Of a stretch of 64,000 nucleotides of DNA, positions 2,654 to 61,912 are shown piece by piece. The notes under the pieces were generated by a model. That model saw only the letters and a list, made by a program, of their open reading frames with translations. It made no database searches and was not told the origin of the DNA. Source of the stretch: a virus; IMG/VR virus record IMGVR_UViG_3300049460_000134, positions 1 through 64,000 of that record; one strand, written 5' to 3'. A program made the translations under genes and the position numbers. How positions within the stretch are numbered: the first letter of the stretch is position 1; every line of letters starts with the position of its first letter.

Positions 2654-2675
2654 GTCAGTAAAAACTGACTTACAA
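2654..2675. promoter_or_regulatory. Recurrent palindrome (operator candidate), site 1
   Basis: GTCAGT-AAAA-ACTGAC followed by TTACAA, 20 bases before the L-like gene. TACAAT at its right edge could act as a -10 box. The same element recurs across the window. Confidence 0.75.
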
Positions 2676-2695
2676 TTTCACTTCAATCCTATGAG

Positions 2696-3412
2696 GTGAA
2701 ATTGGTCACGATCTATCAATCCGCGCAGAGCCTGACGCCTGGTGAAGCAGTCTCCCTGTTCCGTATCGACGTGTCGTCGGTCGGCGGTGGACTGCTTTAT
2801 TTCGTCCAGGGCTCGGAATTTTCCGAGAAGATCAAGTTCGGCGGTATCGAGTATCAGCCGATGGACGTCGAGTTCGATGGTCTTGAGGTGACAGGGCAGG
2901 GCGCTCTGCCATCTCCCTCGATCCGATTGTCGAATACCGACGGCATTGCCCAAGCGATGATTAACACCTTCGGCGACCTTCTCGGTTGCGAGGTGCGCCG
3001 CATTCGCACGTTTAGGCGCCACCTGGACGGCCAGCCGGACGCAGATCCTTCCGCCTTCTTTGGTCCCGACGTCTTCCTTGTTGAGCGCAAGGTCTCGGAG
3101 AACCCTGTCTACATCGAATGGGAGCTCTCGGCTTCGATCGACCAGGAAGGTCGAATGATTCCTGGTCGTGTGGCGATCCGTGACACTTGCCTCTGGCGTT
3201 ACCGCGTCTGGAGCTCCGGTCAGGGCGCCTTCGACTACTCCAAGGCGCAATGCCCTTACACCGGCAATCGCTACTACGACATCAACAACCTTCCCACCAC
3301 AGCATCAAAGGACCGTCCGTCGCGGACGCTGGCCTGCTGCAAGTTGCGCTTCGGAGAGAACGCAGCCTTGCCGTTCGGCGGCTTCCCAGGCGTCGGGCGT
3401 GTGAGCGCATGA
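2696..3412 (+). CDS. Minor tail protein, lambda gpL-like (iron-sulphur tail-tip protein)
   Basis: 238 residues from a GTG; a TTG six bases downstream is an alternative start. The C-terminal part has the Cys pattern of gpL-type proteins (C in DTCLWRY, AQCPYTG, LACCKLRF), which in lambda gpL hold an Fe-S cluster. It lies between M-like and K-like genes and overlaps the next start (ATGA). The operator-type palindrome just upstream suggests that a transcript starts here. It is a component of the tail tip complex below the central J-like protein. Confidence 0.85.
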   Translation: MKLVTIYQSAQSLTPGEAVSLFRIDVSSVGGGLLYFVQGSEFSEKIKFGGIEYQPMDVEFDGLEVTGQGALPSPSIRLSNTDGIAQAMINTFGDLLGCEVRRIRTFRRHLDGQPDADPSAFFGPDVFLVERKVSENPVYIEWELSASIDQEGRMIPGRVAIRDTCLWRYRVWSSGQGAFDYSKAQCPYTGNRYYDINNLPTTASKDRPSRTLACCKLRFGENAALPFGGFPGVGRVSA

Positions 3413-4158
3413 TCCTGACAGAAGCAATTCGCGTTGCTGCTCGCGAGCACGCACGCGCCGAATACCCGAACGAGAGCTGCGGCCTGGTCGTCAACGGTTT
3501 CTATCTGCCCTGTCGCAATGTCGCGGCCGATCCCGCGCAAGACTTCGCGATCCATCCGCAGGACCAGGTGAAGGCCTTGAGCCGCGGCAAGATTCAGATG
3601 GTGATCCACTCGCATCCGAATGGTCCAATGTCGCCTACGCAGCTCGACATGGAAGGCCAGGTCAAGTCGGGTGTTCCGTGGGCGATCATCCCGCTCGATG
3701 AGGATCGGATTGGCGAGGCGCTCATCTGGGGTGACGACACCGATATTCCGCCGCTACTTGGTCGATCCTTCGTCCACGGCATCACCGATTGCTATTCCGT
3801 CGTGCGCGACACCTACCGGCTTGGCCGCAAGGGCTGTGCTGCGCAGGGTATCGAGTGGCCGCTTGATCCGATCATTCTCGGTGAAGTGCCGCGCGGCGAT
3901 CAGTGGTGGGCTGAGGGACAGGATCTTTACTCCAAGTTCGAAGAGTTCGGCTTCCGGGCGATCAACTTCTCCGAGATCCGCCCAGGCGACGCCTTTCTCA
4001 TTAAGGTTCACTCGCAGGTTCTGAACCATGCCGGCGTGCTCGTCGGTGGCGGCATGATCCTGCAGCACTTCCCGAACCGCCTGTCTTCGCGCGTTCCTGC
4101 TGGCCTCTGGGCTCGCAACGCAAACGTCTGGCTTCGGCATGAGGCAGTCAATGCGTAA
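3409..4158 (+). CDS. Tail assembly protein, lambda gpK-like (JAMM peptidase plus NlpC/P60)
   Basis: 249 residues; the ATG overlaps the upstream stop. The N-terminal half is a JAB/MPN domain with the metal motif HSHP...TQLD; the usual Ser of the HxH-x7-S-x2-D motif is Thr. The C-terminal half is NlpC/P60-like, with catalytic Cys in TDCYSVV and His in LNHAGVLV. In lambda the equivalent protein acts in tail-tip assembly and may help cell-wall penetration. A longer open frame extends upstream in phase but overlaps the L-like gene completely, so this start is preferred. Confidence 0.9.
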   Translation: MILTEAIRVAAREHARAEYPNESCGLVVNGFYLPCRNVAADPAQDFAIHPQDQVKALSRGKIQMVIHSHPNGPMSPTQLDMEGQVKSGVPWAIIPLDEDRIGEALIWGDDTDIPPLLGRSFVHGITDCYSVVRDTYRLGRKGCAAQGIEWPLDPIILGEVPRGDQWWAEGQDLYSKFEEFGFRAINFSEIRPGDAFLIKVHSQVLNHAGVLVGGGMILQHFPNRLSSRVPAGLWARNANVWLRHEAVNA

Positions 4159-4738
4159 GGTCTATCTGCACGGCGCCCTTGGCGAGAAATACGGCCACGA
4201 GTTCGATCTGGAGGTTGAAACCGCCTCTGAGGCCGTCCGTGCGCTCGGTGTCAATTTCCGAGAGTTCGCAACCGACATTCGATCGGGTGAATGGCATGTC
4301 ATCCGCGGCGATCTCGACGGCGGCATGGATCTGGACATCGACATGTGCGTCGGCTTTCGGCTTGGCGCTGCACCGCTGCATATCGTGCCTGTGATCGCAG
4401 GCTCCAAGAACAATGGGCTGCTCAAGATTGTGCTCGGCGTCGCCCTGATCGGCGCTGCCTTCCTGGTGCCTGGTGGTATGGCGGCTGCCGTTCCGTTCAC
4501 CGGCGGCATGCTGAAGGCAGGCAACCTCGCCATGATCGGTCTGGCGCTCGCTGCATCCGGCGTTTCGACCATGCTGACCCCTGAGAGCAAAAGCGAGGAC
4601 AGCGAGGAGAGCTACATCTTCTCCGGTCCCGGCAACAACTACGCCAACGGCTCCACCATCCCGATTGTCTACGGCGAAGTCATCACCGGTGGCGTGATGA
4701 TCTCGGCTGGCATCGACGTCGAACAGCTCGGAAACTAG
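4151..4738 (+). CDS. Tail assembly protein, lambda gpI-like
   Basis: 195 residues. An ATG at 4139 is in frame, but 4151 has the better-spaced Shine-Dalgarno (GAGG) and is chosen. The N-terminal half is ubiquitin-like in style (KVYLHGALGEKYG); two hydrophobic Gly/Ala-rich stretches follow (about 97-150), then a polar tail. This matches gpI-family proteins that sit between K and J genes and act in tail-tip maturation. It overlaps the K-like gene by eight bases. Confidence 0.85.
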   Translation: MRKVYLHGALGEKYGHEFDLEVETASEAVRALGVNFREFATDIRSGEWHVIRGDLDGGMDLDIDMCVGFRLGAAPLHIVPVIAGSKNNGLLKIVLGVALIGAAFLVPGGMAAAVPFTGGMLKAGNLAMIGLALAASGVSTMLTPESKSEDSEESYIFSGPGNNYANGSTIPIVYGEVITGGVMISAGIDVEQLGN

Positions 4739-4741
4739 CCC

Positions 4742-11097: not shown

Positions 11098-11133
11098 TTT
11101 AGACTGGATTTGCGGATTCTCGTCTGGCATAAT

Positions 11134-11154
11134 ATCAGTAAAGATTGACTGACA
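11134..11154. promoter_or_regulatory. Recurrent palindrome (operator candidate), site 3
   Basis: ATCAGTAAAGATTGACTGAC, 20 bases before the first gene of the lysis block. An AT-rich CATAATAT lies at its left edge. Confidence 0.75.
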
Positions 11155-15353: not shown

Positions 15354-15382
15354 TTGTCAGTCATTATTGACTGACATATAAT
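15354..15382 (+). promoter_or_regulatory. Sigma-70-type promoter whose spacer is the recurrent palindrome, site 4
   Basis: TTGTCA, then a 17-base spacer, then TATAAT. The palindrome GTCAGTCATTATTGACTGAC (15356-15375) occupies the -35 end and spacer, so a bound protein would block RNA polymerase directly. The next gene starts at 15407. Confidence 0.8.
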
Positions 15383-21343: not shown

Positions 21344-21353
21344 GACTAAGCAT

Positions 21354-21374
21354 GTAAGTAAATACTGACTGACA
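21354..21374. promoter_or_regulatory. Recurrent palindrome (operator candidate), site 6
   Basis: GTAAGTAAATACTGACTGAC, 17 bases before the helicase gene and just after the terminator hairpin. Confidence 0.75.
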
Positions 21375-27922: not shown

Positions 27923-27960
27923 GCCTCAGGCTCACACCTGGGGCTTTTTTTTTTTTTTTT
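27923..27960. terminator. Strong intrinsic terminator with a 16-T tract
   Basis: GCCTCAGG pairs with CCTGGGGC around a six-base loop, then 16 consecutive T (27945-27960). It separates the ligase operon from the convergent RepC gene, whose stop codon overlaps the T tract. Confidence 0.92.
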
Positions 27961-29068
27961 AGTGGTGTCGTCGCCGCTTCATCGCCAGGATCTCTTGCTC
28001 GAGGTCCATTTCACCGCACGCCACCTTCCGCGCGGTCGCTCGATAGAAGCCGCCAAAGTTCTTGATGGTCTGCCGGCCTCGCTGATCTGCCGTGTATTGC
28101 TGGAGCACCATGAAGAAGACCACCGCCGCGCGTTGTCGCCCTAATTCGTCGCAGGCTTCCTCCCAGGCGCTCCGGTGCGTCCCAAACACGCCGCGGAGCT
28201 CGGCCGCCGCTTTAACCAGGTCGCCAATGTCTGTCACGCGACCGCAATACTCGATCGCATCAGGGCAGGCGGCCATGATATCGCCCAGCCGGATCGGCTT
28301 GCTCCCCAATCCTTCCGTGCCTTTTGAACAAGGCTGCTCAAAGTTCTCGTTGTTGTTCTTATTGTGACGGCAATTATTGCCGGCATTGGCGGTATTAAAT
28401 AGTTCCTCTGCTTCTTTCGTGAGAGCGCGCCAATCGTTCAGAATGGGGCCAGGAGAGCGTTTCTTCGATCTGCGCGGCGTGTGCTCGGCCAAAGCCTGAT
28501 AACGCTGCTCAAGAGCGCCCGTGTCGATATCGGGGTGATGCTCATGCAAAGCCCTGATGACTTCCATCACTGAGCGCCGAGAGACCGTGACGGCGTCAAA
28601 CTCCTGGCTCCAAATGATCTCCTGCTCGCGCATCCGATCGGCGATGGCCTGGAACTCGTCCTGGCGATCGAGAAGAGGGGAAAGGTCGAAGCCGTAGGCG
28701 TCGATGATCTGCTGCGTGCGGAAGTCTCGCTCGGCATATCTTTTGCCATTCGGAGAGTTTTTCGAGAGCACCAGGCCGGCGCTGATAAGATTGCGCAAGG
28801 CGTTGCGGATCTGCCGCTCGGAATAACCGGTCGCCTGGCACAGCGCATCATTGGACGGCCAGACAAGGATTCTTCCCTTGAGTGGCTCTTTGAAGAAGCT
28901 AATCAACGTCCCGAGGACGGCTATACTTGCCCTATCCAGTTGAAGCGCGCGGTCGGCGAGCTTTTTGACTTGGTAGAGTTTGCGCTTGTCGGCGTCGAAA
29001 TGCTGATTAATCAGTAAGTGCTGACTCGCGGAGAGCTTGCGCCACCCGCTATTGTGTTGAGTCTCCAT
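27959..29068 (-). CDS. repC: RepC-type replication initiator
   Basis: 369 residues, slightly shorter than plasmid RepC (about 400). A winged-helix region (about 70-100, PSNDALCQATGYSERQIRNA) matches the RepC N-terminal DNA-binding domain. The last about 110 residues carry the RepC C-terminal pattern: CPDAIEY, LVKAAAELRGVFGTH, WEEACDELGRQRAA, GGFYRATARKV. In repABC plasmids RepC starts replication at an origin inside its own gene. Here it is on the minus strand, against all neighbours, downstream of an RHH gene. A variant of the phage palindrome lies at 29010-29026 near its 5' end. RepA and RepB partners are not seen. Confidence 0.85.
   Translation of the reverse strand: METQHNSGWRKLSASQHLLINQHFDADKRKLYQVKKLADRALQLDRASIAVLGTLISFFKEPLKGRILVWPSNDALCQATGYSERQIRNALRNLISAGLVLSKNSPNGKRYAERDFRTQQIIDAYGFDLSPLLDRQDEFQAIADRMREQEIIWSQEFDAVTVSRRSVMEVIRALHEHHPDIDTGALEQRYQALAEHTPRRSKKRSPGPILNDWRALTKEAEELFNTANAGNNCRHNKNNNENFEQPCSKGTEGLGSKPIRLGDIMAACPDAIEYCGRVTDIGDLVKAAAELRGVFGTHRSAWEEACDELGRQRAAVVFFMVLQQYTADQRGRQTIKNFGGFYRATARKVACGEMDLEQEILAMKRRRHH
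29010..29026. promoter_or_regulatory. Palindrome variant inside the 5' end of repC
   Basis: ATCAGTAAGTGCTGACT has both arms of the recurrent palindrome with a different centre. It lies about 40 bases inside the RepC coding region. Confidence 0.5.
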
Positions 29069-29121: not shown

Positions 29122-29230
29122 TTGACAGCGATTCGGTTTCATGGGAAAACACACTTGCTAAGGGTGTTGGGTTTCCCAATCCACGATTTCAGGGCTTCGG
29201 AAGTTACCAGCTTCCGGAGCCCTTTCGTTT
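29122..29230 (+). ncRNA. Candidate antisense RNA opposite the repC leader
   Basis: TTGACA (29122-29127) is a good -35; the matching -10 (GAAAAC, 17 bases on) is weak. Downstream are a small hairpin (TTGGG-TTT-CCCAA) and a 12-bp stem GGGCTTCGGAAG / CTTCCGGAGCCC with TTTCGTTT, a plus-strand terminator. The position mirrors the counter-transcribed RNA that controls repC in repABC plasmids. Inference; no transcript evidence. Confidence 0.45.
29192..29230 (+). terminator. Strong hairpin between the RHH gene and repC
   Basis: 12-bp stem with six-base loop and a T-rich tail on the plus strand. On the minus strand it lies in the leader of repC. Confidence 0.75.
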
Positions 29231-29426
29231 ATGCCGCGTTAAAATCCCTCATTTTCAAAGCCTCTTGCAGTGCAACGGAGATCGCCTCAGACTTCGTGCC
29301 GATCTTGTTCTCGGCCTGGAAGTCGCTCAGCTTGGCGTTCACGTCGGCCGGCAGCCATATGGTCGCCTGGACGAGACCAGCCTGTTTTCGACGGATACGA
29401 TGTTCAGCCATTCTAGCTGCACTCAT
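29229..29426 (-). CDS. Ribbon-helix-helix (CopG/Arc-type) regulator
   Basis: 65 residues from ATG 29426, with AAGGAG at the right distance upstream; a longer in-frame version lacks a ribosome site. ATIWLPADVNAKLSDFQ then a KSEAISVALQEAL helix is the ribbon-helix-helix pattern of small DNA-binding repressors and antitoxins. No toxin partner is adjacent. It precedes repC by 160 bases on the same strand, so control of repC copy number is the likely role. Confidence 0.75.
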   Translation of the reverse strand: MSAARMAEHRIRRKQAGLVQATIWLPADVNAKLSDFQAENKIGTKSEAISVALQEALKMRDFNAA

Positions 29427-29803
29427 ACTGCGAATCTCCTTGATGCACGTTGCGGTCACAAGTGACACCGATTCTGGTGATTTGGCAATACAGCGCGCTT
29501 TTGAAGCACAAGGTTTAGATTCGCTCTGTTTGAAAGAGGGAGCGTAAAGTCGCAATCACTGGATGAATATGAAAAATTATAATCGCATAGGTTTAATTAT
29601 GGAACATCGCGAATCCTTTGTGTTGTGGAAATGTCAACATTTGTGAGATCGCCATTTTTGGGGTATCGAATCCTTCAATTGAAGTGCCATTCGCGTTGAA
29701 ATTCAAGGACTCGAGCCGATTATCAAGCAAATTAAAGATCCCGAATATCCACTCACAAACCTGTCATCCGTCAAGGAGATTACGGAAAATTAATCGACTC
29801 AAA

Positions 29804-29825
29804 GTAAATCAGTATTGACTTACAA
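29804..29825. promoter_or_regulatory. Recurrent palindrome (operator candidate), site 8
   Basis: GTAAATCAGTATTGACTTAC upstream of the XRE-type regulator gene. CTTACA with an 18-base spacer to GATTAT could also form a promoter here. Confidence 0.65.
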
Positions 29826-29849
29826 CCCTTTACGATATCTATGATTATC

Positions 29850-29947: not shown

Positions 29948-30367
29948 ATGGAACATAAGAATAAAAAAGAATTCAATCGGCCTTTTGCTGACAGCAAGGT
30001 TTCGAAATTCATGACCAAGCGCATCGAGCAGCTCGGCAAGCCAAACCGCGAAATCGCGCAGGCAGCCGGCTTCACGTCTGGTCCGAACATCATTTCGATG
30101 ATTAAGAATGGCGACGTCAAACTGCCGCTCGATCGTGTCGTTCCGATGGCACACGCGCTGAAGACGGACCCTGCTGCTCTGATGCGCATGGCGCTTGAGC
30201 AGCATATGCCACTCAAGGAATTCCCCGAGATCCGCAAGGTGATGACAGACGTTCTGTCAGAAAACGAGCGCGAGATCCTGGAATTGATCCGTGAGACTTC
30301 CGGTAACTCCGATCCGGGTCTTAACGATCACCGCCGTCAGGCGATCAAGGACGCATTCGCAGCGTAA
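29948..30367 (+). CDS. XRE-type helix-turn-helix regulator
   Basis: 139 residues from ATG 29948; a GTG fifteen bases upstream is an alternative. Residues about 33-56 (NREIAQAAGFTSGPNIISMI) form a Cro/CI-type helix-turn-helix, and PLDRVVPMAHALKTDPAALM is the usual following helix pair. The C-terminal half is helical and may dimerise. The gene has an operator palindrome upstream and further copies at 30439 and 30713. It is therefore the best candidate in the window to bind them. That link is inference. Confidence 0.82.
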   Translation: MEHKNKKEFNRPFADSKVSKFMTKRIEQLGKPNREIAQAAGFTSGPNIISMIKNGDVKLPLDRVVPMAHALKTDPAALMRMALEQHMPLKEFPEIRKVMTDVLSENEREILELIRETSGNSDPGLNDHRRQAIKDAFAA

Positions 30368-30397: not shown

Positions 30398-30429
30398 GAG
30401 CCGCAGCACCTTGCGGCTCTAACTTTTTC
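30398..30429 (+). terminator. Intrinsic terminator after the XRE-type gene
   Basis: GAGCCGCA pairs with TGCGGCTC around a short loop, followed by TAACTTTTTC. Confidence 0.88.
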
Positions 30430-30438
30430 AATATAGGG

Positions 30439-30460
30439 GTCAGTCAAATTTTACTGACTC
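30439..30460. promoter_or_regulatory. Recurrent palindrome (operator candidate), site 9
   Basis: GTCAGTCAAATTTTACTGAC, 20 bases before a small gene and right after a terminator. Confidence 0.75.
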
Positions 30461-30479: not shown

Positions 30480-30701
30480 ATGACTTCACCTCTAACTCAC
30501 GACCAGATCAATTCCTGCCAGGAGCTCGACTTCGAAACGGCAATTATTGAGGCCGACAAACTCGAGAACGCCAACCGGCAGGAAGCAGGCGGTTGCACTG
30601 TCTACACTGGTCGTCACCCTGAACATGGTGACATCCATATTATTATCCCTCCCCTCGGTGGTGGGCTCCTTCTGTTCCCGTTTGTATCCCGCATCTTTTA
30701 A
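30480..30701 (+). CDS. Small hypothetical protein
   Basis: 73 residues with AAAGGA as ribosome site. Acidic first half; the second half is hydrophobic and Gly/Pro-rich (IHIIIPPLGGGLLLFPFV), so membrane association is possible. It stands alone between a terminator and two operator palindromes. No family recognised; codon content is reasonable for a real gene. Confidence 0.55.
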   Translation: MTSPLTHDQINSCQELDFETAIIEADKLENANRQEAGGCTVYTGRHPEHGDIHIIIPPLGGGLLLFPFVSRIF

Positions 30702-30712
30702 TGCGAGAACGT

Positions 30713-30734
30713 ATCAGTAAAGATTGACTGACAA
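30713..30734. promoter_or_regulatory. Recurrent palindrome (operator candidate), site 10
   Basis: ATCAGTAAAGATTGACTGAC, nearly identical to site 3; 12 bases before the CobT-like gene. Confidence 0.75.
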
Positions 30735-30746: not shown

Positions 30747-33248
30747 ATGAACAAAGAAATCGTCATCCTTCGCGAAGCAATCAACAAGATCATTCCAATG
30801 ATCGCAGGCAAAGGCCTGAAGGTCACGCAGATCGGAACTGGTGCTTACGTGAAGGCTCATCCTTCAACGGGTGTCCCGTATCTCGTCAACATTCCATCGA
30901 TTCCAGATAATGCGACTCCGGAGTTCGTGACCTCCATTCAAGGCTTCATCGACCATGAAGTCAGTCACGTCCTTTTCACCGACTTTTCCTACAAGATGGG
31001 TCAGAAGTCGCGCCGGCTGCACAGCCTGCACAACGTCTTCGAAGACACCATGATCGAGCGCAAGATGGCGGACAAGTTCTCCGGCTCGAAGCGCAACCTG
31101 GCGACACTGCGCGCCTGGTTCTGCGAAAACATCACGAAGCCAGCGCTCGCATCCGCAAAGTCTGAAGAGGAAGCTTTCGGCTACCTCCTGGTCGTTGCCA
31201 TGCGAGCGCTCGCCGGCCACCGTGAAATGAAAGACTTCCTCGACGACAATAATCTCTGGGCGCAGCCGCTTCTCGCAGCTCTCATGAGCAAGATGCCGGC
31301 CGATTTCGTGAAGCGCATCCCTCTCCTCAACTCGACGGCTGAAACCTACGACGCCGCCGTCCAGCTCGAAGCAATCCTTTATCCGCCACCGCCACCTGCC
31401 CCGCCGCAGCCTGAGCCTCAGCCGGAAGAACAGGACGAGGATGAGAGTGGCGAAGGCGATCAGGACCACTCTGACGAGGAGCAGACCGGCGACGGTGAAG
31501 GCGAAGGTGAGCGTGAGCACACCGAGGACAACGAGAACGCGTCCGGCGGTGAAGAAGAAGAAGACGACGACATGGAGATCGAGGAGCAAGAGCTCTTCGG
31601 CGATGAGGATGAGGACGAAGATGCCGGCGAAGGTGAAAAGAGCGCCGACGAGGAAACTGAAGCCGACGCTGACAGCGACAGCAGCGACGATGGCGATGAC
31701 GACGCGTCTGGCGAAGAAGATGCCGAAGGCGACGCTGACGGCTCCGAAGATGAAGCCGATGAAGATGCTGGTGAGGATGAGCGTAAAGGCTCCGGCAAGG
31801 CCAGCGACAAAGACGGCGACGCTGACGATGCCGATGATGAGAATGGTTCTGGCAAGTCGTCCGATGATGACGATGACGGAGACCAGGAAGAGGATTCAGG
31901 CGATGCTGCTGACGGTTCGCAAGCATCAGAACCTGACGAGGATGCTGAAGGCGACGACGGTGAGACGGATACCGCCGATCAGTCCGATGGATCTGCCGAG
32001 TCGGAAGTGGACGATCAGGATGATGAGAGCGACGGCGACGCTGGCGGCGGTGATGCCGATGGTGAGACCGAAGAAGGTGATGAAGCCGACGACGAGAGCG
32101 ACGCTGAAGGCGGCTCTGACGTTGCGGTAGAAACCGATAGTGACGACGACGGCGACGGAGCCGAAAAGCCTGAAGAGGAAAACGAAGAAGGCGTGGCTGG
32201 TGTCGGCTACGACGAGCACAACCCCTTCGAAGCGCTCGATGACGATGACCTTGTCGACAAGGATCTGTCCTCGTCGATCGCAATCCTCATTCAGAAGGAA
32301 GCGATCAAAGCCATCCTCTCGTCTGAATACTCCGTTCTGACGCGCCAATACGATCGCATCGAACCGCTTCCGGTTCCGGAGACATTCGCTCAGGAGCACG
32401 TCACGCGGCTCGACGACGCAACGCGGCAGATGACCGGTGTCATGCAGAAGGACATTGAGCGCATGATGGCTGCTCAGTCGCGCGTCTTCAAGGTCGGCGG
32501 TCAGCGCTCCGGTCGTCTGAACGGACCTGGTCTGCATCGCATCATGTCCAACGACGATCGCGTGTTTGCTCGCCGAGAAGAGATCAAGGCGAAGGACACT
32601 GCCGTCTCGCTGCTGATGGACTGCTCCGGCTCGATGGAAGGTGCAAAGCAGGCGACCGCCGTGTCAGCCTCCTACGCGCTCGCAACGACCCTTGAGCGCG
32701 TCAACATTCCTTGCGAGTGCCTGGGCTTCACGACGATGGGCTACATCGGTCGCAACAACACGCAGCAATGGCCCCTCTCCCATCGTCAGTGGGAAGAGCT
32801 GATGGAGCATTTCAACGCCGAAGTCGCAAAGGGCGTCACGTTCCATCGGTTCATGCCGATCTTCATGCCGGTCTTCAAAGGCTTCCAGGAGCGCGTCAAC
32901 GCCGAGATCAAGCGTCGCTTCGCCTACATGCAAATCAAGCAGCCACACCAGGGCGGCAACATCGACGGCGAGTCCCTGGAATATGCAGCGATGCGGCTCG
33001 CGCAGCGCAAGGAAAAGCGCAAGGTCATCATCGTTCTGTCAGACGGTCATCCAGCCGGCGCTCTGAACGATTCCGAGCATCTGAAGATGATGGCCGAGCG
33101 CCTGACGAAGCAAGGCTACGACCTCGTCGGTATCGGCATCAAGGATCACGCTGTCAGCCGCTTCTACGACAAGCATGTGGTGTTGCAGGACATCGCCGAT
33201 CTCCCTGGTGAAGTCATGAAGCAGCTTCGTGTCATCCTGCAGAAGTGA
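30747..33248 (+). CDS. cobT: CobT-like protein: HExxH region, acidic linker, VWA domain
   Basis: 833 residues in three parts. The N-terminal part (1-212) has HEVSH (70-74) and LHNVFEDTMIER, the pattern of metallopeptidase-like domains paired with VWA proteins. Residues about 213-480 are a Pro-rich then extremely acidic Asp/Glu/Ser linker. The last about 220 residues are a VWA domain with a MIDAS motif (MDCSGSM) and CobT-like NIDGESLEYAAMRL and VLSDGHP. CobT works with the AAA+ protein CobS in cobaltochelatase; a CobS-like gene follows at 34096. In phages the pair probably remodels another complex, target unknown. Confidence 0.85.
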   Translation: MNKEIVILREAINKIIPMIAGKGLKVTQIGTGAYVKAHPSTGVPYLVNIPSIPDNATPEFVTSIQGFIDHEVSHVLFTDFSYKMGQKSRRLHSLHNVFEDTMIERKMADKFSGSKRNLATLRAWFCENITKPALASAKSEEEAFGYLLVVAMRALAGHREMKDFLDDNNLWAQPLLAALMSKMPADFVKRIPLLNSTAETYDAAVQLEAILYPPPPPAPPQPEPQPEEQDEDESGEGDQDHSDEEQTGDGEGEGEREHTEDNENASGGEEEEDDDMEIEEQELFGDEDEDEDAGEGEKSADEETEADADSDSSDDGDDDASGEEDAEGDADGSEDEADEDAGEDERKGSGKASDKDGDADDADDENGSGKSSDDDDDGDQEEDSGDAADGSQASEPDEDAEGDDGETDTADQSDGSAESEVDDQDDESDGDAGGGDADGETEEGDEADDESDAEGGSDVAVETDSDDDGDGAEKPEEENEEGVAGVGYDEHNPFEALDDDDLVDKDLSSSIAILIQKEAIKAILSSEYSVLTRQYDRIEPLPVPETFAQEHVTRLDDATRQMTGVMQKDIERMMAAQSRVFKVGGQRSGRLNGPGLHRIMSNDDRVFARREEIKAKDTAVSLLMDCSGSMEGAKQATAVSASYALATTLERVNIPCECLGFTTMGYIGRNNTQQWPLSHRQWEELMEHFNAEVAKGVTFHRFMPIFMPVFKGFQERVNAEIKRRFAYMQIKQPHQGGNIDGESLEYAAMRLAQRKEKRKVIIVLSDGHPAGALNDSEHLKMMAERLTKQGYDLVGIGIKDHAVSRFYDKHVVLQDIADLPGEVMKQLRVILQK

Positions 33249-33993: not shown

Positions 33994-33998
33994 TTTCC

Positions 33999-34017
33999 AA
34001 GTAAAAATTGACTTGCA
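33999..34017. promoter_or_regulatory. Recurrent palindrome (operator candidate), site 11
   Basis: AAGTAAAAATTGACTTGCA; a short hairpin GACTTG-CATCC-CAAGTC overlaps its right arm. First of two tandem copies before the CobS-like gene. Confidence 0.6.
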
Positions 34018-34030
34018 TCCCAAGTCGTTT

Positions 34031-34046
34031 GTCAGTAAAAATTGAC
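34031..34046. promoter_or_regulatory. Recurrent palindrome (operator candidate), site 12
   Basis: GTCAGTAAAAATTGAC, the core palindrome, 14 bases after site 11 and 49 before the CobS-like gene. Confidence 0.7.
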
Positions 34047-34095
34047 AATAAGAAAAGCGAAGAAATCGCTAGATCAACACAACAAACGGAGCCGA

Positions 34096-35349
34096 ATGAA
34101 CATGACGACTGCTGTCGCCGCCGCCGATGATATGATTGTCTGCAAGATTGATGGCGCTCTCTGCCACTCGATCCGCGTTCACCTCAAGCATAACCACCCT
34201 GAATGGACGATTGACCGCTACAAGGAAGAGTTTCCTGGCGAGCCGCTGTTGTCGGCATTCGGTGAGGCGCAGGCTCGCAAGATCCGCGCACAGAAGCAGG
34301 CTGAAGAGCGCCGCAAGGAGCGCATGGCGCAGTTTCAGCCGTCGCAGCCCTGGGCGTTCGAAGAGCGCTATATGCACGAGGTCTTCGGCATCGACACGCC
34401 GATCGTCGGCTCTGCCGGTCAGCCGATCAAGATCAACTATCTGACGGAGTGCCATCCGGAGGCTGAAATCTACCTTCAGGATATCGATCCGGACTACGTC
34501 TTCAACATCGACCTGCTGAAGAAGGCCAACATCGCCTACGAACTCAACATGCCCTTCTATGCCTGGGGCTTTCACGGCACAGGCAAGACGACACTGCTTG
34601 AGCAGACGGCGGCTCGCACTGGCCGCCCATTCCTGCGCGTTCAGCACACCGGCAACACCGAAGAGGCGCACATCGTCGGCCAATATGTCGTCAAGACCAT
34701 CCCTGTCGAGGAAGAAGAGCTCGGCGCTGACGGCGTGAAGCACAGGGTCATCAAGCAGAAGGCCGTCACGGAGTTTCAGCCTGGTCCGCTCGCCGTCGCA
34801 ATGAAATACGGCATGGTCTACTGCGCCGACGAATACGACTTCGCAATGCCGTCAGTCATCGCGCTCTATCAGCCGGTGCTCGAAGGCAAGGCGCTCGTCA
34901 TCAAGGATGCACCGCCTGAATGGCGTGTGACGCGTCCGCACCCCGACTTCCGCTTCGTCGCGACTGGCAACACCAACGGTTCAGGCGACGAGACTGGTCT
35001 TTATCAAGGCACGATGATGCAGAACGCCGCGAGCTACTCGCGCTTCACCATCACGGAAGAGGTTAAGTATATGCCGAAGGAGCAAGAGGCGCTTGTCCTT
35101 CGCTCGCGCACCGGTCTGACGAAGGCTGACGCGATGAAGTTCGTGGAAGTTGCGACCGCGATCCGTGAGGCGTTCGCAACCGGCCTGATCTCGATGCCCG
35201 TATCGCCGCGCGAAATCATCGGCGCTGCTAAGCTGTCGATCATCTACGGCGACAATCCGAAGCAAGGTCTGCGCCTCGCATACACCAACCGCTGCACGCG
35301 CGTCGATCAAAAGGCGGTCGATGATGTGGCTCAGAGGTATTTCGGCTGA
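34096..35349 (+). CDS. cobS: CobS-like AAA+ ATPase with N-terminal Ros/MucR-like zinc-finger motif
   Basis: 417 residues from ATG 34096 (CGGAG ribosome site); an upstream TTG lies in the palindrome. EVFGIDTPI, DIDPDYVF, Walker A GFHGTGKTTL (about 156-165), DEYDFAMPSV, VATGNTNGSGDETGLYQGT and MPVSPREII follow CobS almost segment by segment. An extra N-terminal module (C16, C23, H29, H34; HSIRVHLKHNHPEW, then YKEEFP) resembles the Ros/MucR finger of alphaproteobacterial regulators. The protein probably forms a hexamer working with the CobT-like VWA protein. Its stop overlaps the sigma-like gene start. Confidence 0.88.
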   Translation: MNMTTAVAAADDMIVCKIDGALCHSIRVHLKHNHPEWTIDRYKEEFPGEPLLSAFGEAQARKIRAQKQAEERRKERMAQFQPSQPWAFEERYMHEVFGIDTPIVGSAGQPIKINYLTECHPEAEIYLQDIDPDYVFNIDLLKKANIAYELNMPFYAWGFHGTGKTTLLEQTAARTGRPFLRVQHTGNTEEAHIVGQYVVKTIPVEEEELGADGVKHRVIKQKAVTEFQPGPLAVAMKYGMVYCADEYDFAMPSVIALYQPVLEGKALVIKDAPPEWRVTRPHPDFRFVATGNTNGSGDETGLYQGTMMQNAASYSRFTITEEVKYMPKEQEALVLRSRTGLTKADAMKFVEVATAIREAFATGLISMPVSPREIIGAAKLSIIYGDNPKQGLRLAYTNRCTRVDQKAVDDVAQRYFG

Positions 35350-35981
35350 TGCTCGATTACCGCGAAAGCGCACCTCGCATCGCAAGGATCGCGAACGCTG
35401 TTGCATACCAGCTCTCCGGATCTGGTGTGCATTCCATGACCAGGGACGACGTTGAGCAGGAGCTTTGGATCGTCTGGTGCATGGCGCGCGACAAGTATGA
35501 TCCCTCGCTCGGTGTTCCCTTTGAGGCCTTCCTCATCAACGGGATCAAGATGCACATCCGATCGAGCATCAAGCGCAAGGCATTCAAGCGAGCTGCCGAA
35601 GAGTGGGGCAAGAGCCTCGACGCTCCAGTCAGCAAGGATGAAGGCGGCGCGACGGTCGGCGAAACGATCGCGGAAGACTTCAGCTTCATGGATGACATCG
35701 AGGCTGAAGGACAGTTCCAGTTCATCGTCTCGCGTTTGACAGAGCGCGCCGCGACATTCGTTCGTCTGCTGCGCGACCAGCCGCAGATCCTGATCGATGC
35801 ACTGAAAGCTCTCGAAGAGCGCTCCAACTACGCAAAGGAACTTGGCGTCAGCAACATGCTGTTCCGCCAGGTGACGACGTCCATGATTTTCAAGCTGATG
35901 GGATGCGATCGTCCAGAGCGCACGCGCATCCTCGCTGAAGTCCGTCAAGTGACGGAGAAAGAACTGAGGAAGCTCGCATGA
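35349..35981 (+). CDS. Sigma-70-family-like factor
   Basis: 210 residues; the ATG overlaps the CobS-like stop. Residues about 30-75 (RDDVEQELWIVWCMARDKYD, then GVPFEAFLINGIKMHIRSSI) match sigma region 2: the core-binding 'DLxQEg' helix followed by 'F.a....rI'. The rest is helical and has no obvious region 4, so -35 recognition may be missing or different. It could direct host RNA polymerase to phage promoters such as the TATTAT set. Plausible, not proven. Confidence 0.72.
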   Translation: MLDYRESAPRIARIANAVAYQLSGSGVHSMTRDDVEQELWIVWCMARDKYDPSLGVPFEAFLINGIKMHIRSSIKRKAFKRAAEEWGKSLDAPVSKDEGGATVGETIAEDFSFMDDIEAEGQFQFIVSRLTERAATFVRLLRDQPQILIDALKALEERSNYAKELGVSNMLFRQVTTSMIFKLMGCDRPERTRILAEVRQVTEKELRKLA

Positions 35982-40687: not shown

Positions 40688-40724
40688 AAAGACTAGCAGT
40701 CCGTGAATTTTTCGTTATTAACGT

Positions 40725-40746
40725 GTCAGTAAATACTGACTTACAA
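40725..40746. promoter_or_regulatory. Recurrent palindrome (operator candidate), site 13
   Basis: GTCAGTAAATACTGACTTAC, 15 bases before a frameshifted small gene. Confidence 0.75.
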
Positions 40747-43382: not shown

Positions 43383-43942
43383 GCGTCCAGAAGCTCGAAG
43401 AAGCGGTCTCGAAGGTCGCCGGTTCAGTCCAGGCACTGACGAAGTCCTTCGAGAAGATCGCCGCCGATGTCACTGAAGAAGATATGGAAAAGGCGTTCCA
43501 CTATCTCTACGGCATGTTCATCGCAGCGAAGGAACGCGCAGCACTCGATCACCGGATCGCGCAGGGCGTTTCACCGAAGTTCTCGCTGGCAGATATCAAG
43601 CTGCCGCCGAAGACAGTGATGATCCCGGCAGGCACCATTCAGCTCACGCCATCAGCCGCTCCGGCGCATCCCGTTCAGCAGGTTGTGGTCGCGGCGCCAA
43701 CCGAGACAGCCATTCCGGCGGAAGCAGTTGGCGCCGGTGGTGAAATCGATCTGAGCAAGGTCGATGGCAAGCAAGCAGCAAAGCTAATTGGCGGCCGCCT
43801 GACGCGTTCCGCCAAGGAAGCACTCCCCAGAACTCCTCGCGTGCGCAAATTCCAGTCAGTCAAAACTGACTTACACGACGAGGACGACGACGCTTCCGCC
43901 GATGACGAAAGCGAAGTCGATTTCATTGACGACAACGAGTAG
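43379..43942 (+). CDS. Hypothetical protein with acidic tail upstream of recA
   Basis: 187 residues from the ATG overlapping the previous stop; upstream open sequence in this frame lies in the membrane gene. Helical N-terminus (VQKLEEAVSKVAGSVQALTK), Pro/Ala-rich middle, basic patch (PRTPRVRKF) and very acidic end (EDDDASADDESEVDF). The recurrent palindrome is embedded in its coding sequence at 43855-43875. No family recognised. Confidence 0.72.
   Translation: MSVQKLEEAVSKVAGSVQALTKSFEKIAADVTEEDMEKAFHYLYGMFIAAKERAALDHRIAQGVSPKFSLADIKLPPKTVMIPAGTIQLTPSAAPAHPVQQVVVAAPTETAIPAEAVGAGGEIDLSKVDGKQAAKLIGGRLTRSAKEALPRTPRVRKFQSVKTDLHDEDDDASADDESEVDFIDDNE
43855..43875. promoter_or_regulatory. Recurrent palindrome inside a coding region, site 14
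   Basis: GTCAGTCAAAACTGACTTAC, read as codons for VKTDL in the upstream gene; 77 bases before recA. No room for it between the genes, so it is kept inside the coding region. Confidence 0.7.
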
Positions 43943-46430: not shown

Positions 46431-46437
46431 TGCATTA

Positions 46438-46459
46438 GTAAGTAAAAATTGACTGACGA
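46438..46459. promoter_or_regulatory. Recurrent palindrome (operator candidate), site 15
   Basis: GTAAGTAAAAATTGACTGAC at the expected transcription start of the sbcD-like gene, 13 bases before its start codon. Confidence 0.75.
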
Positions 46460-51631: not shown

Positions 51632-51632
51632 T

Positions 51633-51652
51633 GTCAGTAAACATTGACTGAA
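51633..51652. promoter_or_regulatory. Recurrent palindrome (operator candidate), site 16
   Basis: GTCAGTAAACATTGACTGAA, one base after the -10 box and nine before the next start. Confidence 0.75.
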
Positions 51653-51661
51653 GGTTTGGAA

Positions 51662-52734: not shown

Positions 52735-52755
52735 TCGTAAAATCAAGCCTGTTTA

Positions 52756-52777
52756 GTCAGTAAAAACTGACTTACAA
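52756..52777. promoter_or_regulatory. Recurrent palindrome (operator candidate), site 17
   Basis: GTCAGTAAAAACTGACTTAC, identical over its whole length to site 1; followed by TACAAT as possible -10. 30 bases before the nrdB-like gene. Confidence 0.8.
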
Positions 52778-55749: not shown

Positions 55750-55756
55750 TGCTCTT

Positions 55757-55778
55757 GTAAGTAAATACTGACTGACAC
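55757..55778. promoter_or_regulatory. Recurrent palindrome (operator candidate), site 18
   Basis: GTAAGTAAATACTGACTGAC, with an extra half site GTCAGTCAG at 55790. Seven bases before a small reading frame. Confidence 0.72.
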
Positions 55779-55785
55779 GAAAGCG

Positions 55786-55914
55786 ATGTGTCAGTCAGTT
55801 CCAGCGATCGAAGATCAACCGCTCTACGAGGTGTCGCCTTATGAACCGCTAAGTCGGGTTTATCAGTCAAAATTGATTAAGAAAAAGACGTCGCCAGGAG
55901 CCGTCAGAAAATAA
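55786..55914 (+). CDS. Very small reading frame, possible NUMOD4-type remnant
   Basis: 42 residues. IEDQPLYEVSPYEPLSRVY resembles the NUMOD4 segment of homing-endonuclease proteins (lYeVSnyGrV). SPGAVRK at the end recalls KPGAIRKRL in the HNH-type protein at 63430-63837. It is either a real small protein or the 5' remnant of a broken endonuclease gene. Ribosome site weak (AAGCG). Confidence 0.4.
   Translation: MCQSVPAIEDQPLYEVSPYEPLSRVYQSKLIKKKTSPGAVRK
55862..55879. promoter_or_regulatory. Recurrent palindrome variant, site 19
   Basis: ATCAGTCAAAATTGATTA, both arms shortened; it lies in the small reading frame ahead of a structured segment. Confidence 0.5.
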
Positions 55915-55920
55915 ACCTGG

Positions 55921-56028: not shown

Positions 56029-56126
56029 ACCTGACGAGGACTGCGGTGAAGTCTCTCGCTTACAAGCGTGGCTAGGGTTCGAGTCCCTTAAGGGTCGCCT
56101 GTTCAACACCTACTGAGGAGAAGCGC

Positions 56127-56411: not shown

Positions 56412-56423
56412 TAGGAGATTCCA

Positions 56424-56669: not shown

Positions 56670-56674
56670 CGCAC

Positions 56675-56881: not shown

Positions 56882-57086
56882 AGACAGGCATACGCCGAAG
56901 TTGAAGCAGATCGCCGGTCTCATCCAGGGACTGACCTTCCGCGAAATGCAGCATATCTCGGAATTGCTGAGGGATGAGCTGCAAGTGAGCGGCTCAATGC
57001 CTGTTACCGATGCGCTGCTAAAAGTTGCCGACAATCTTCTCGGCTTCGACACGCAGACCGGAATTCCCTTTCGTTCCGCTTCCTGA
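56856..57086 (+). CDS. Small hypothetical protein before thymidylate synthase
   Basis: 76 residues from ATG 56856 (AAAGGAG site). Helical; [20 protein letters not shown] suggests a compact helical bundle. No family recognised. Confidence 0.65.
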
Positions 57087-57105
57087 AACAATAAGGACAC
57101 CTCCT

Positions 57106-58101: not shown

Positions 58102-58109
58102 GATATCCA

Positions 58110-58139
58110 CGCGCAACCCAACATTTCTTGCGCTATTGT
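58110..58139 (+). promoter_or_regulatory. Promoter candidate, GCGCA/TATTGT type
   Basis: CGCGCA, ACCC, 18-base spacer in all, TATTGT. GCGCAA (58111) and TTGCGC (58128) pair as a hairpin. The operator palindrome follows at once. Confidence 0.68.
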
Positions 58140-58160
58140 GTCAGTAACAATTGACTGATA
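58140..58160. promoter_or_regulatory. Recurrent palindrome (operator candidate), site 20
   Basis: GTCAGTAACAATTGACTGAT, directly after the TATTGT box and 25 bases before a small gene. Confidence 0.75.
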
Positions 58161-58185
58161 GCGCGAGCAAAGATAAGGACGATCC

Positions 58186-58389
58186 ATGTCAGAAAAGATC
58201 GACATTCACATCGACCACTACATCGCCCAGGAAGGCGGTGTTGGCTTCTACTATTCGGTGATGCCATCGACTGAGCTGTTTGGACCGTTCGAAACTGCAC
58301 AACTCGCCGCTGAAGGTGCTCTCGCAGCGCTTCAAGGGGCGATGGACGACATTGTAATGGCCGCACTCGGCATCGAAAAAGGAGAGTAA
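58186..58389 (+). CDS. Small hypothetical protein before dUTPase
   Basis: 67 residues. GGVGFYYSVMPSTELFGPFE followed by a helix (AQLAAEGALAALQGAMDDIV) resembles small phage proteins with a 'GPF.s...A...A' pattern. Function unknown. Confidence 0.65.
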   Translation: MSEKIDIHIDHYIAQEGGVGFYYSVMPSTELFGPFETAQLAAEGALAALQGAMDDIVMAALGIEKGE

Positions 58390-58391
58390 AC

Positions 58392-58859: not shown

Positions 58860-59479
58860 TGCTCTACGGCATCTGCGGTGCTCATCGCAGTGGAAAAACC
58901 ACACTTGCCAAGCGCGTCGCGGAAGAACTTGGTATCGAGTTCATCGATACCTCGTTCGGCTCCATCAGCAAGGGCAAACGCAATCCGGTCGCTCCCATGA
59001 CTCTCAGGGAGCGGCTCGACATTCAGGTTCACGGCCTGGAACGCCACCTGGAGCTCATCCTTCAGGCAAGCCGGCCGGCAATCGTCGATCGCACGCCGCT
59101 CGACATGTTCGGCTATCTCCTCGCAGAATTTCACATGACCTCCGATCGCCATGCTGATGCGGACGTCCTGGAAGGAGCTGCCTACCTCGCCGAGCAATAC
59201 CTCGAGGCTGTGAAGCTCAACTACGACATGGTCTTCTTCACGGAGATCCTGCCGGTCTACGAGGTCGATACCTCGAAGCCGACGCCGCCAAACAATCGTG
59301 CCTTCCAGCTTCACCTGGACGCGATCATCCGCGGCGGTCTGCATCGGCTCCATGACGAGATCAACCATGCCGTTGTGCCAGCGATACCGCTTGCGGAGCG
59401 CGTGGAACAGGTCTCGGAACTGATCGTGGAGCGGATGAACGAAATCGACGACCAGCGCAAAGCCGTCGGATTCCACTAA
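58859..59479 (+). CDS. P-loop kinase-like protein, possibly nucleotide kinase
   Basis: 206 residues; the ATG shares a base with the dUTPase stop. P-loop GAHRSGKTT (7-15), then DRTPLDMFGYL, like AAA_28/nucleoside-kinase proteins. Position after dUTPase and thymidylate synthase suggests a deoxynucleotide kinase, but substrate residues are not identified. Confidence 0.75.
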   Translation: MLYGICGAHRSGKTTLAKRVAEELGIEFIDTSFGSISKGKRNPVAPMTLRERLDIQVHGLERHLELILQASRPAIVDRTPLDMFGYLLAEFHMTSDRHADADVLEGAAYLAEQYLEAVKLNYDMVFFTEILPVYEVDTSKPTPPNNRAFQLHLDAIIRGGLHRLHDEINHAVVPAIPLAERVEQVSELIVERMNEIDDQRKAVGFH

Positions 59480-59494
59480 GCCACACGAAAAAGC

Positions 59495-59517
59495 CACGCG
59501 CATCCCAACTGCGCGTG
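59495..59517 (+). terminator. Hairpin merged with the next promoter
   Basis: CACGCGCA pairs with TGCGCGTG around TCCCAAC. It contains the -35-like CGCGCA of the promoter at 59497. No T tract. Confidence 0.6.
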
Positions 59518-59526
59518 AGCTATTCA
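59497..59526 (+). promoter_or_regulatory. Promoter candidate for the rII operon
   Basis: CGCGCA, TCCC, 18-base spacer in all, TATTCA. The -10 overlaps the left arm of the operator palindrome. Confidence 0.6.
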
Positions 59527-59544
59527 GTAATTATTGACTGACAA
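59523..59544. promoter_or_regulatory. Recurrent palindrome (operator candidate), site 21
   Basis: TTCAGTAATTATTGACTGAC, 31 bases before the rIIA-like gene. Confidence 0.75.
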
Positions 59545-59575
59545 CAAACAAGAACAGACACAAGGAGACAGAAGC

Positions 59576-61912
59576 ATGGAAGTTTCGCAGCTTGCGCAGC
59601 TCGACACACACGCCGTCATCGGCGGTGAAGATCCTGAAGCGTTCGGCATGGCTGATACTCCAGAATTCTATCAGATGCTCTCAGCCAGCATCTATCGCGA
59701 CAAGATCCGCGCAGTCGTGCGCGAGACGATCTGCAATGGCTGGGACGCGCATATCATGGGCGGCTGCACCGACAAGGCAGTGCAAGTTACACTCACGGAC
59801 GAGGAGCTTGTCATCAAGGACTTCGGTCCCGGCATTCCGCATGAGAAGATGCGGCCGATCTATTGCATCTACGGCGTTTCGACGAAGGTGAAGGATGAGA
59901 GCCAGACCGGCGGTTTCGGTCTCGGATCCAAGTCGCCATTCGCCGTCACCGATCACTTCTCCGTCGTCTCGTGCTTTGCAGGCACACGCTCTGTCTATGC
60001 CATCTCTCGCGGTGGCAAAGCTACAAGCGGCAAGCCTGACATGCGCCGCATGGTCGCCGTGCCGACAACCGAAAGCGGCGTCACTGTCACGGTCCCGATC
60101 AAAAAGGAAGAGCGCGAGAGCTTTGCCAAGCACATTCGCGCCGTTGCAAAGCAGGGCGGCATGCTGGTGACGCTGAACGGCGAACTTCTGGAGCGCTTCG
60201 ATTACGAGGAGGCGCGCAAGACTGAGTTCTGCGTCGTCGCGCCTCACTGGATGCACGAAAGCCGCATCTATACGCTCTACGGCACCGTCCTCTATCCGGT
60301 GATGACGACCGACCCTGATATCTCCAAGCTGACACGCGATATCGAAGGCCTGATCGGCTACGGCTCGACGCTGGTTATCGTTGCCCCGCCGAATTCAGTC
60401 GAAGTCACGCCGTCGCGCGAGTCCCTCTCTTTTACGGATGGAACCACCGACACCATCAAGCGGCTGCTCGACAAGGCATGCACGCGCATCAGCAAGGCAA
60501 TTCCGGCAGCTACTAAGCTCGCTGTCGATGCACGCGTTGCAAAGAACGGCCGCCTAGCGCTCGCGAGCAAGATCCACGCGATCAGAGAGGTGCCTGAGAA
60601 GGTTCTCTCCAGTGCGCTCGCGATCGCCGAGCACGCCGTCCGCTCGAATCCTGATAACCATATCCAGTATGATCGACAGCGGCGCCTATGCCTTCAGGCA
60701 GCGCAGCGACTGTTCAAAGATGATCGCCGCACCTTCCGCCGTGCGCTGAAGCGTGGTTACAACGCTGGCGAGGACAGCTTCAAGGCGTCGAGCAAGCCGC
60801 TCATCCGCATTGCCTCGAAGATGGGCATGCTGAAGGATGCGCACCTCTTCAACATCTACGCCTATCGCTACCAGACGATCGGCTCCAAGACCAATCCGCT
60901 GAAGGAGCACGACACCGGGGTCGTTAGGCCTGTCCTTTGCGTGGCGCGCAATCTGCGCGATCTGCGACCGACGATGAGCGGTGCAAGCAGCGGTTTTCCG
61001 CCGGACAAGGATAGCTTCATCGCCGGCCTGGTCATGCGCCAGTGGACTGCGGAGCGCCTGAAGCAGCTTCGCGCGCTCGCCGAGCACTACAAGCTGAAGC
61101 TGGTCATCTTCGATTACGAAGCAGCGAAGAAGCCGAAGAAAGCACCGGTCAAGCGCGAAAAGATCGTCGACAAGTATTTCGCCCTTGGTGATTTCAGGGG
61201 AACGACTTGCGAAACGGCAAACCTCGAAAATCCGAAATACTTCCTGATGAGCTTTGCGCGCGAAGGCATGCGTTCGCCCTTTCAGGATGAAGGCCATCAA
61301 TACCACCACCTTCTTGCGAAGCGCTATCCGGAGACGGCTGTCATTTCGTCCAAGACAGACGCTGAGAAGCTGATGAAGCGCGGCGCAGTCAATCTGACCG
61401 GTGTCATTGCCAAGCGCATTGCGGAGCTCGCTGGGGTCCGTGAGGTCCAATACGCTTACGCGATCCGCGAAGGCCTGATGTGCAACGGCAATTATCACCA
61501 CTACCCATCAGACCTGGCCATTTCGTTCGCCAAGCTCGACATGCGGATTGCAAAGCGCCTGTTCCCCGACAAGGCGACGCCTGGCGCTCTCGCTGAAGAA
61601 GGCTTGCTTCTGAACGACGTGATGAACTCGCTGCGGCTCGATTATCAGGACCGCAACTGCGGCGGCAATGAAGCCAAGCTCAAGATCTGGACGTCTGCGA
61701 GAGAGACCTACAAGGCCATGACCACGTCATATGCCGACCAGAAATTCAGTTACTTGAGCGTCCTGGCAGGCATCAGAGTTACCGGCGGCATCAAACGCAA
61801 GATCGATGATCTCCACGACATCATCGTCTTTTTGCAGGACCGCGAGAGTAAGTCAAAATTGACTGAATCCCTTTTGAACCCAATTGCTAACGCCCAGAAG
61901 GAGGCAGCATGA
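59576..61912 (+). CDS. rIIA: rIIA-like GHKL ATPase
   Basis: 778 residues from ATG 59576 (AAGGAGA site). The N-terminal GHKL ATPase domain shows RETICNGWDAH (N box), KDFGPGIP and GGFGLGSKSPFA. T4 rIIA is 725 residues and is needed to grow on lambda lysogens by resisting the RexAB exclusion system. Here it is followed by an rIIB-like gene whose start overlaps its stop. A palindrome lies inside its 3' end (61848). A role in superinfection or anti-exclusion is inferred. Confidence 0.9.
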   Translation: MEVSQLAQLDTHAVIGGEDPEAFGMADTPEFYQMLSASIYRDKIRAVVRETICNGWDAHIMGGCTDKAVQVTLTDEELVIKDFGPGIPHEKMRPIYCIYGVSTKVKDESQTGGFGLGSKSPFAVTDHFSVVSCFAGTRSVYAISRGGKATSGKPDMRRMVAVPTTESGVTVTVPIKKEERESFAKHIRAVAKQGGMLVTLNGELLERFDYEEARKTEFCVVAPHWMHESRIYTLYGTVLYPVMTTDPDISKLTRDIEGLIGYGSTLVIVAPPNSVEVTPSRESLSFTDGTTDTIKRLLDKACTRISKAIPAATKLAVDARVAKNGRLALASKIHAIREVPEKVLSSALAIAEHAVRSNPDNHIQYDRQRRLCLQAAQRLFKDDRRTFRRALKRGYNAGEDSFKASSKPLIRIASKMGMLKDAHLFNIYAYRYQTIGSKTNPLKEHDTGVVRPVLCVARNLRDLRPTMSGASSGFPPDKDSFIAGLVMRQWTAERLKQLRALAEHYKLKLVIFDYEAAKKPKKAPVKREKIVDKYFALGDFRGTTCETANLENPKYFLMSFAREGMRSPFQDEGHQYHHLLAKRYPETAVISSKTDAEKLMKRGAVNLTGVIAKRIAELAGVREVQYAYAIREGLMCNGNYHHYPSDLAISFAKLDMRIAKRLFPDKATPGALAEEGLLLNDVMNSLRLDYQDRNCGGNEAKLKIWTSARETYKAMTTSYADQKFSYLSVLAGIRVTGGIKRKIDDLHDIIVFLQDRESKSKLTESLLNPIANAQKEAA
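61848..61867. promoter_or_regulatory. Recurrent palindrome inside a coding region, site 22
   Basis: GTAAGTCAAAATTGACTGAA, coding for SKSKLTE near the end of the rIIA-like protein, 41 bases before the rIIB-like start. Confidence 0.65.

Follow-up and report, generated by a model that had tools for sequence, protein, structure and literature searches.

In phage P1, which is maintained as a plasmid, one repressor, C1, is served by 22 dispersed operators, each an asymmetric 17-bp sequence, ATTGCTCTAATAAATTT (PMC8546580). Cluster A mycobacteriophages such as L5 and Bxb1 carry 24–34 intergenic stoperators, which are 13 bp long, asymmetric, in one orientation and mostly off promoters; they block elongation, and their sequence drifts with the helix–turn–helix (HTH) of the repressor between lineages (PMC3029335, PMC6550527). 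Here we describe a dispersed palindrome in the first 64,000 bases (the window) of the 115,555-base virus record IMGVR_UViG_3300049460_000134, a phage-plasmid of root-nodule bacteria. On the basis of sequence comparisons, this element probably serves a prophage repressor acting across the genome as its operator, and the predicted ligand is a homodimer of the XRE protein encoded at 29948–30367. An earlier note on the window, to which the remaining 51.6 kb was unseen, had proposed that a single dimeric DNA-binding protein acts on nearly every phage operon in a layout like that of the L5 stoperators, and control of most phage operons by one such protein appears to be the best-supported reading.

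The system would work like P1 C1 and the L5 stoperators and is a member of neither kind, because its site, a symmetric 22-bp dyad, has a sequence unrelated to theirs and occurs in more copies. With P1 it shares the plasmid state, a single (here proposed) repressor and operators dispersed over the genome, but it has about twice as many sites, a different site sequence and an XRE/434-type protein, and no Coi/Lxc-like partners were identified for this phage. With the L5 stoperators it shares intergenic, dispersed sites that drift with the HTH of the presumed repressor, whereas a larger share of its sites lies at promoters; the earlier claim that the two sequences are unrelated stands. Rather than a one-orientation site of the L5 kind, we found only a partial arm bias, in this genome and in the group of Rhizobium phage RHEph10: at tandem sites of this genome the downstream arm has G at +3 in a fraction of 0.89, versus 0.38 for the matching C at −4, and the bias relative to transcription is weaker in the RHEph10 group. 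Repressors of the 434/lambda type resemble the XRE protein in HTH fold, dyad operator and the position of a helix-3 residue; they control one immunity region via few operators, in contrast to the roughly 48 sites here.

A dispersed, mainly intergenic dyad

The palindrome had been described as 16–22 bases long with the core GTCAGT-N3/4-ACTGAC. That core is real (five exact occurrences against 0.00 expected), but as a 16-mer it is incomplete: the full unit is the 22-bp dyad TGTMAGTMAAWWTTKACTKACA, the half-sites of which contain a 4-bp repeat (GTMA-GTMA). All 22 sites listed earlier were recovered, shifted by 0–3 bases and scoring 25–35 bits each. We then scanned the genome with a matrix trained only on the window, which found 25 held-out sites of at least 17 bits at 64–115.6 kb; 22 of these are intergenic, where intergenic sequence has a share of 17%, and the top score among 20 shuffled genomes was 16.6 bits. 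The whole genome contains 48 sites where 0.3 would be expected; 43 are intergenic, compared with 5.5 expected (p=3e-35). The sites at 43854 and 61847, nominally within genes, occupy the 3′ end of the upstream gene. A variant previously suggested in repC (29009..29030, +) scores 12.1 bits, which is at chance level given that shuffles reach 16.6, and is probably no site; a second marginal match, at 58187 (15.5 bits), is also inside the shuffle range.

The dyads are dispersed genome-wide at a median spacing of 2.1 kb. As had been noted, they precede start codons, with the dyad centre usually 18–140 bp (median 38) ahead in the ten genomes compared below. Outside the window, minus-strand and divergent genes are also preceded by sites, in addition to the plus-strand genes noted earlier.

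Conservation across phage-plasmids

The nearest annotated relatives of the window are the Rhizobium phages RHEph10 and RHph_Y2_11. It is also related to resident plasmids of sequenced bacteria, namely Pararhizobium p5, one Shinella plasmid, one Methylobacterium plasmid and pLM21S1, a plasmid-like prophage without an integrase (PMC4447125). The genome carries RepC, ParA, CobT/CobS and the shared core genes of RHEph10-like phage-plasmids, ten of which formed our comparison set; the SSU5-like Escherichia coli phage-plasmid Cyrano was the eleventh genome, and two further SSU5-like genomes, Klebsiella pJN2-26 and PhiR41_1, were also used. Genes were called anew, and 11/11 RHEph10 genes checked agreed exactly.

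In an unbiased 5-mer dyad count, TMAGTMA-N4-TKACTKA was the leading dyad, or close to it, in all ten RHEph10-like genomes. Symmetric matrices found 38–53 sites per genome against a null of 0–0.4, and the intergenic share of these sites was 87–100% in nine genomes and 78% in the Methylobacterium plasmid; 4–7 intergenic sites would be expected. The dyad drifts by lineage at M, which is A or C, and at its fourth position, which is A or G. When seeds were scrambled as a control, two yielded many sites, mostly the same motif in another register, and the rest yielded few. Seeding with ungapped palindromes in GC-rich loci was dropped, as GC-rich matches overwhelmed the signal.

A homologous palindrome, GATARGTAAGTACTTACYTATC, is present at 24–30 sites in each of Cyrano, pJN2-26 and PhiR41_1. 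Cyrano has 27 sites (null 0.8), 23 of them intergenic. The Cyrano-derived matrix, which was not trained on either genome, found 30 sites in pJN2-26 and 24 in PhiR41_1 (null <1), and it found 42 in pLM21S1. Cyrano resembles this phage in its related dispersed palindrome, in a homologous XRE protein (CYRAN_45, ‘putative repressor’, 33%) and in the neighbourhood of that gene, whereas its sites are fewer and have longer outer arms. We found no description of the operators of Cyrano in the open-licence literature searched. A second dispersed palindrome, AACAA-N-TTGTT / AAACA-N3-TGTTT, occurs in 11–14 copies in each of the three SSU5-like genomes.

Two classes of site

Among 433 sites in the ten genomes, 355 lie between tandem, 39 between divergent and 8 between convergent genes, and 28 are within genes. 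In a first class, making up about 35–45% of tandem sites per genome, the dyad is immediately preceded by a −10-like hexamer (13–17 sites per genome, versus 1.5–5 in control stretches); this box is clearest in pLM21S1, V1VFA-S and X66, as TCC...GCGCTATAA. In a second class of 15–19 sites per genome (about 40%), the dyad centre falls at most 35 bp past the preceding stop codon, mostly with no −10-like box. The TTGTCA-N17-TATAAT promoter reported at 15354 is real, and many sites are just downstream of a −10-like box, but the promoter setting is not general, given the large stop-proximal group. Pairing of site and terminator was rejected as the general stop-proximal layout: it was seen 1–3 times per genome, which does not exceed its frequency in gaps lacking a site. 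The few sites directly before a hairpin terminator include 107571 in this genome and RHEph10 469.

A promoter-like element other than TTGACA stands ahead of many operators: GCATCCCAA or GCACTCCAA, then about 12–17 nt, then GCGCTATAA. It is clearest in pLM21S1, V1VFA-S and X66, and in the window it is found at about 46400, 55720, 58100 and 59490. The conserved phage sigma-like protein (35349–35981) or an activator might read it.

An XRE protein as the candidate repressor

The earlier note had named an XRE-type and an RHH protein as candidate binders, and the comparisons favour the first as the best-supported predicted ligand. XRE is the sole classical HTH regulator among the reciprocal-best genes common to all eleven genomes, and the gene order XRE–small open reading frame (ORF)–CobT–CobS is kept throughout, Cyrano included. 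A site lies upstream of XRE in 10/10 Rhizobium-type genomes, including the site at 29803 in this one, and in 37/39 XRE loci on viral contigs (at most 2 mismatches, within 330 bp upstream of the gene), where 265 sites were found versus 43 in the control. Most XRE-leader sites keep TTGACTTA, even where the lineage consensus elsewhere may be TTACTTA; in pLM21S1 the G of TTGACTTA is otherwise present in only 2/80 half-sites. Since this sequence is kept and CTATAT, CTATAA or CTATGA follows 18 nt later in several leaders, we read the arrangement as an XRE promoter whose −35 box is covered by the operator, and TTGACTTA is likely the −35 element of XRE's own promoter. In SSU5-like genomes the palindrome comes after the TAATAT box ahead of the XRE gene.

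An AlphaFold2 model of the protein (predicted local distance difference test score 87) has the HTH at residues 33–54 and superposes on 434 Cro (2cro) with a root-mean-square deviation of 1.7 Å over the HTH domain. Its Pfam match to HTH_3 (E=0.002) is below the gathering score; fold and sequence together place it among XRE/434-type HTH proteins. Helix 3 of 434 repressor contacts bases through its first Gln, and residue 44 of XRE aligns with this Gln in both 434 Cro and repressor. Of 123 XRE columns, residue 44 is the best for the base at ±4, with Asn going with A and Lys with C; the mean C fraction at ±4 is 0.24 for Asn, 0.75 for Gln and 0.94 for Lys. In partial Mantel tests, which may be over-confident, HTH distance predicted motif distance when controlling for CobS (partial r 0.27, p=0.001) and for the rest of XRE (partial r 0.36, p=0.0005). 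CYRAN_45, the Cyrano homologue, is expressed 10-fold above the local prophage background in the lysogen and appears in a table marking master repressors (PMC9928086).

Several observations weigh against assigning the dyad to XRE. The association of residue 44 is partly phylogenetic, and 2/314 CobS columns do equally well; in a phylogeny-aware pair test, independent pairs were never opposite in direction but were too few for significance. Whole-XRE distance added nothing significant beyond CobS (p=0.08), and the most distant XRE loci have a weak leader site, with 2 mismatches. The motif is absent at equally similar XRE homologues in Rhodobacterales chromosomes and non-phage plasmids, so that presence of XRE alone is no proof of a site and specificity must differ elsewhere in the family; the non-phage XRE plasmids of Cereibacter, Gemmobacter and Thauera and the Rhodobacterales loci were considered as independent evidence tying XRE to the motif and were rejected for the same absence. 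No cleavage domain was seen in XRE, and mitomycin C did not induce pLM21S1 (PMC4447125).

Alternative readings of the dyad

We considered whether the dyads are instead dispersed sites of ParB or another partition protein that organise the plasmid prophage, their position ahead of genes being a by-product. Nearly all genomes, Cyrano included, have kept ParA and two ParB-like proteins, partition sites can be palindromic, and the centromere sites of N15 are dispersed near promoters. However, 40–50 copies, each ahead of an operon and many exactly at a −10 box, are hard to reconcile with partition, as are the dyad on the XRE promoter and the tracking of dyad sequence by the XRE HTH. The dyads are spread genome-wide rather than clustered near parAB as parS sites would be, and the centromere is more plausibly sought in another repeat (CGCTAA/TAGCGA), which in five genomes clusters at most 7 kb from parA. 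We regard this explanation as very unlikely. The CGCTAA/TAGCGA-rich repeats (for example TTCGCTAAATCG..TTAGCGA) cluster at genome positions 92400–97815 here and also occur in four relatives; other lineages have AGCTAG or CCATGG words near parA instead.

Similarly improbable is a role in switching genes on, with the element serving as a phage promoter or being bound by an activator or by the phage sigma factor (35349–35981). Sites precede genes, the right arm reads TTGACT in many of them, and the sigma-70 region-2 protein is conserved in Rhizobium-type genomes; yet there is no −10 enrichment 17–18 nt past TTGACT except in the XRE leader, and a sigma-70 promoter with its −35 box in the right arm was rejected as a general rule on this ground. 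The −10-like boxes lie upstream of the site, which would hence be transcribed, many sites directly follow a stop codon, the dyad symmetry is true, and motif-bearing Cyrano has no reciprocal-best match to the sigma protein.

The small RHH protein (29229–29426) has still less to recommend it as the binder. It is encoded by an adjacent gene, RHH tetramers like tandem short repeats such as the GTMA-GTMA of the half-site, and RHH genes are found in many Rhizobium-type relatives, but the protein was undetected in Cyrano and in many motif-bearing viral loci, and its own gene has no site directly ahead. Least likely of all, the dyad might act in RNA as a 7–9-bp tetraloop hairpin for processing, attenuation or stability. 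TMAGTMA-N4-TKACTKA could fold in this way, and many sites are intergenic but inside operons. However, the arms lack covariation (in nearly all genomes half-site pairing matches or falls below the shuffled level), at promoter-class sites the left arm would be partly lost and an Rfam search gave no match; half-sites that do not covary point to a DNA operator rather than an RNA hairpin.

Features of the window

The sites and genes discussed are collected in Table 1. A CobT-like VWA protein with a long acidic stretch (30747–33248) and a CobS-like AAA ATPase (34096–35349) adjoin the candidate repressor; they are its neighbours in both alphaproteobacterial and gammaproteobacterial phage-plasmids, and no other cobalamin genes were seen nearby.

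Table 1. Operator sites (dyads) and other features of the window, with match scores of the sites
Feature	Position	Strand	Score or remark
Operator site, 18 bp past stop codon	2653..2674	+	35.5 bits
Operator site, near stop codon	9063..9084	+	33.1 bits
Operator site, −10-like box just upstream	11133..11154	+	33.4 bits
Operator site within TTGTCA-N17-TATAAT	15355..15376	+	33.5 bits
Operator site, near stop codon	19677..19698	.	35.3 bits
Operator site ahead of DnaB-like helicase gene	21353..21374	+	34.3 bits
Operator site, near stop codon	23854..23875	+	28.6 bits
RepC plasmid replication initiator	27959..29068	-	RP-C 1.7e-37
Small RHH protein, rival binder candidate, not favoured	29229..29426	-	
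Operator site about 143 bp upstream of XRE gene, kept in relatives, putatively autoregulatory	29803..29824	+	28.3 bits
TTGACT, predicted −35 of XRE promoter within operator	29815..29820	+	TTGACTTA present in almost every close XRE leader and in many distant ones
CTATGA, predicted −10 of XRE promoter, spacer 18	29839..29844	+	CTATAT/CTATAA equally spaced in relatives
XRE/434-type HTH protein, 139 aa, proposed global repressor	29948..30367	+	
Terminator-like hairpin directly 3′ of XRE gene	30398..30419	+	
Operator site ahead of 73-aa ORF	30438..30459	.	27.5 bits
73-aa ORF, conserved, between repressor candidate and CobT	30480..30701	+	
Operator site ahead of cobT-like gene	30712..30733	+	33.4 bits
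Operator site, pair member 1, ahead of cobS-like gene	33996..34017	+	25.2 bits
Operator site, pair member 2, ahead of cobS-like gene	34030..34051	+	25.8 bits
Sigma-70 region-2 protein (phage sigma-like)	35349-35981		
Operator site ahead of small ORF	40724..40745	+	35.3 bits
Operator site, 3′ end of gene preceding recA; same position in RHph_Y2_11 and RHEph10	43854..43875	+	33.5 bits
Operator site, −10-like box upstream, ahead of exonuclease subunit 1 gene	46437..46458	+	32.4 bits
Operator site, −10-like box upstream	51632..51653	+	29.1 bits
Operator site ahead of ribonucleotide reductase genes	52755..52776	+	34.6 bits
Operator site, −10-like box upstream	55756..55777	+	34.3 bits
Operator site	55861..55882	+	26.0 bits
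Operator site	58139..58160	+	30.6 bits
Operator site ahead of rIIA-like gene	59522..59543	+	30.8 bits
Operator site, 3′ end of rIIA ahead of rIIB; near same position in RHph_Y2_11	61847..61868	+	30.4 bits

Proposed mechanism and implications

In the mechanism that we propose, a homodimer of the 139-aa XRE/434-type protein would bind the 22-bp dyad. At sites next to a −10 box, the operator would cover roughly +1 to +22 and block initiation, and stop-codon-proximal sites would act as stoperator-like roadblocks to read-through. The operator over the −35 box of XRE would bring about autorepression; with its own operator and the terminator-like hairpin after the gene, XRE could be made alone while the rest of the genome is silent. 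The repressor would keep the phage as a plasmid and may confer superinfection immunity, the specificity of which would drift between lineages.

No description of the lysogeny regulon of SSU5/RHEph10-type phage-plasmids was found in the open-licence literature searched. We tentatively suggest that lysogeny in a superfamily of plasmid prophages across Alpha- and Gammaproteobacteria, both RHEph10-like and SSU5-like, rests on one ancestral repressor–operator regulon of 25–50 dispersed dyads. Immunity groups might arise as the operators change one base at a time in step with a single helix-3 residue (Asn/Gln/Lys), and a sizeable fraction of sites might be elongation roadblocks. SSU5- and RHEph10-type phage-plasmids are abundant vehicles of gene transfer among bacteria, and the analysis names their likely repressor and offers a testable operator code for some fifty genomes and loci, one that would predict which relatives are cross-immune. 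Beside P1 C1 and L5, this would be a third case of genome-wide control through dispersed operators.

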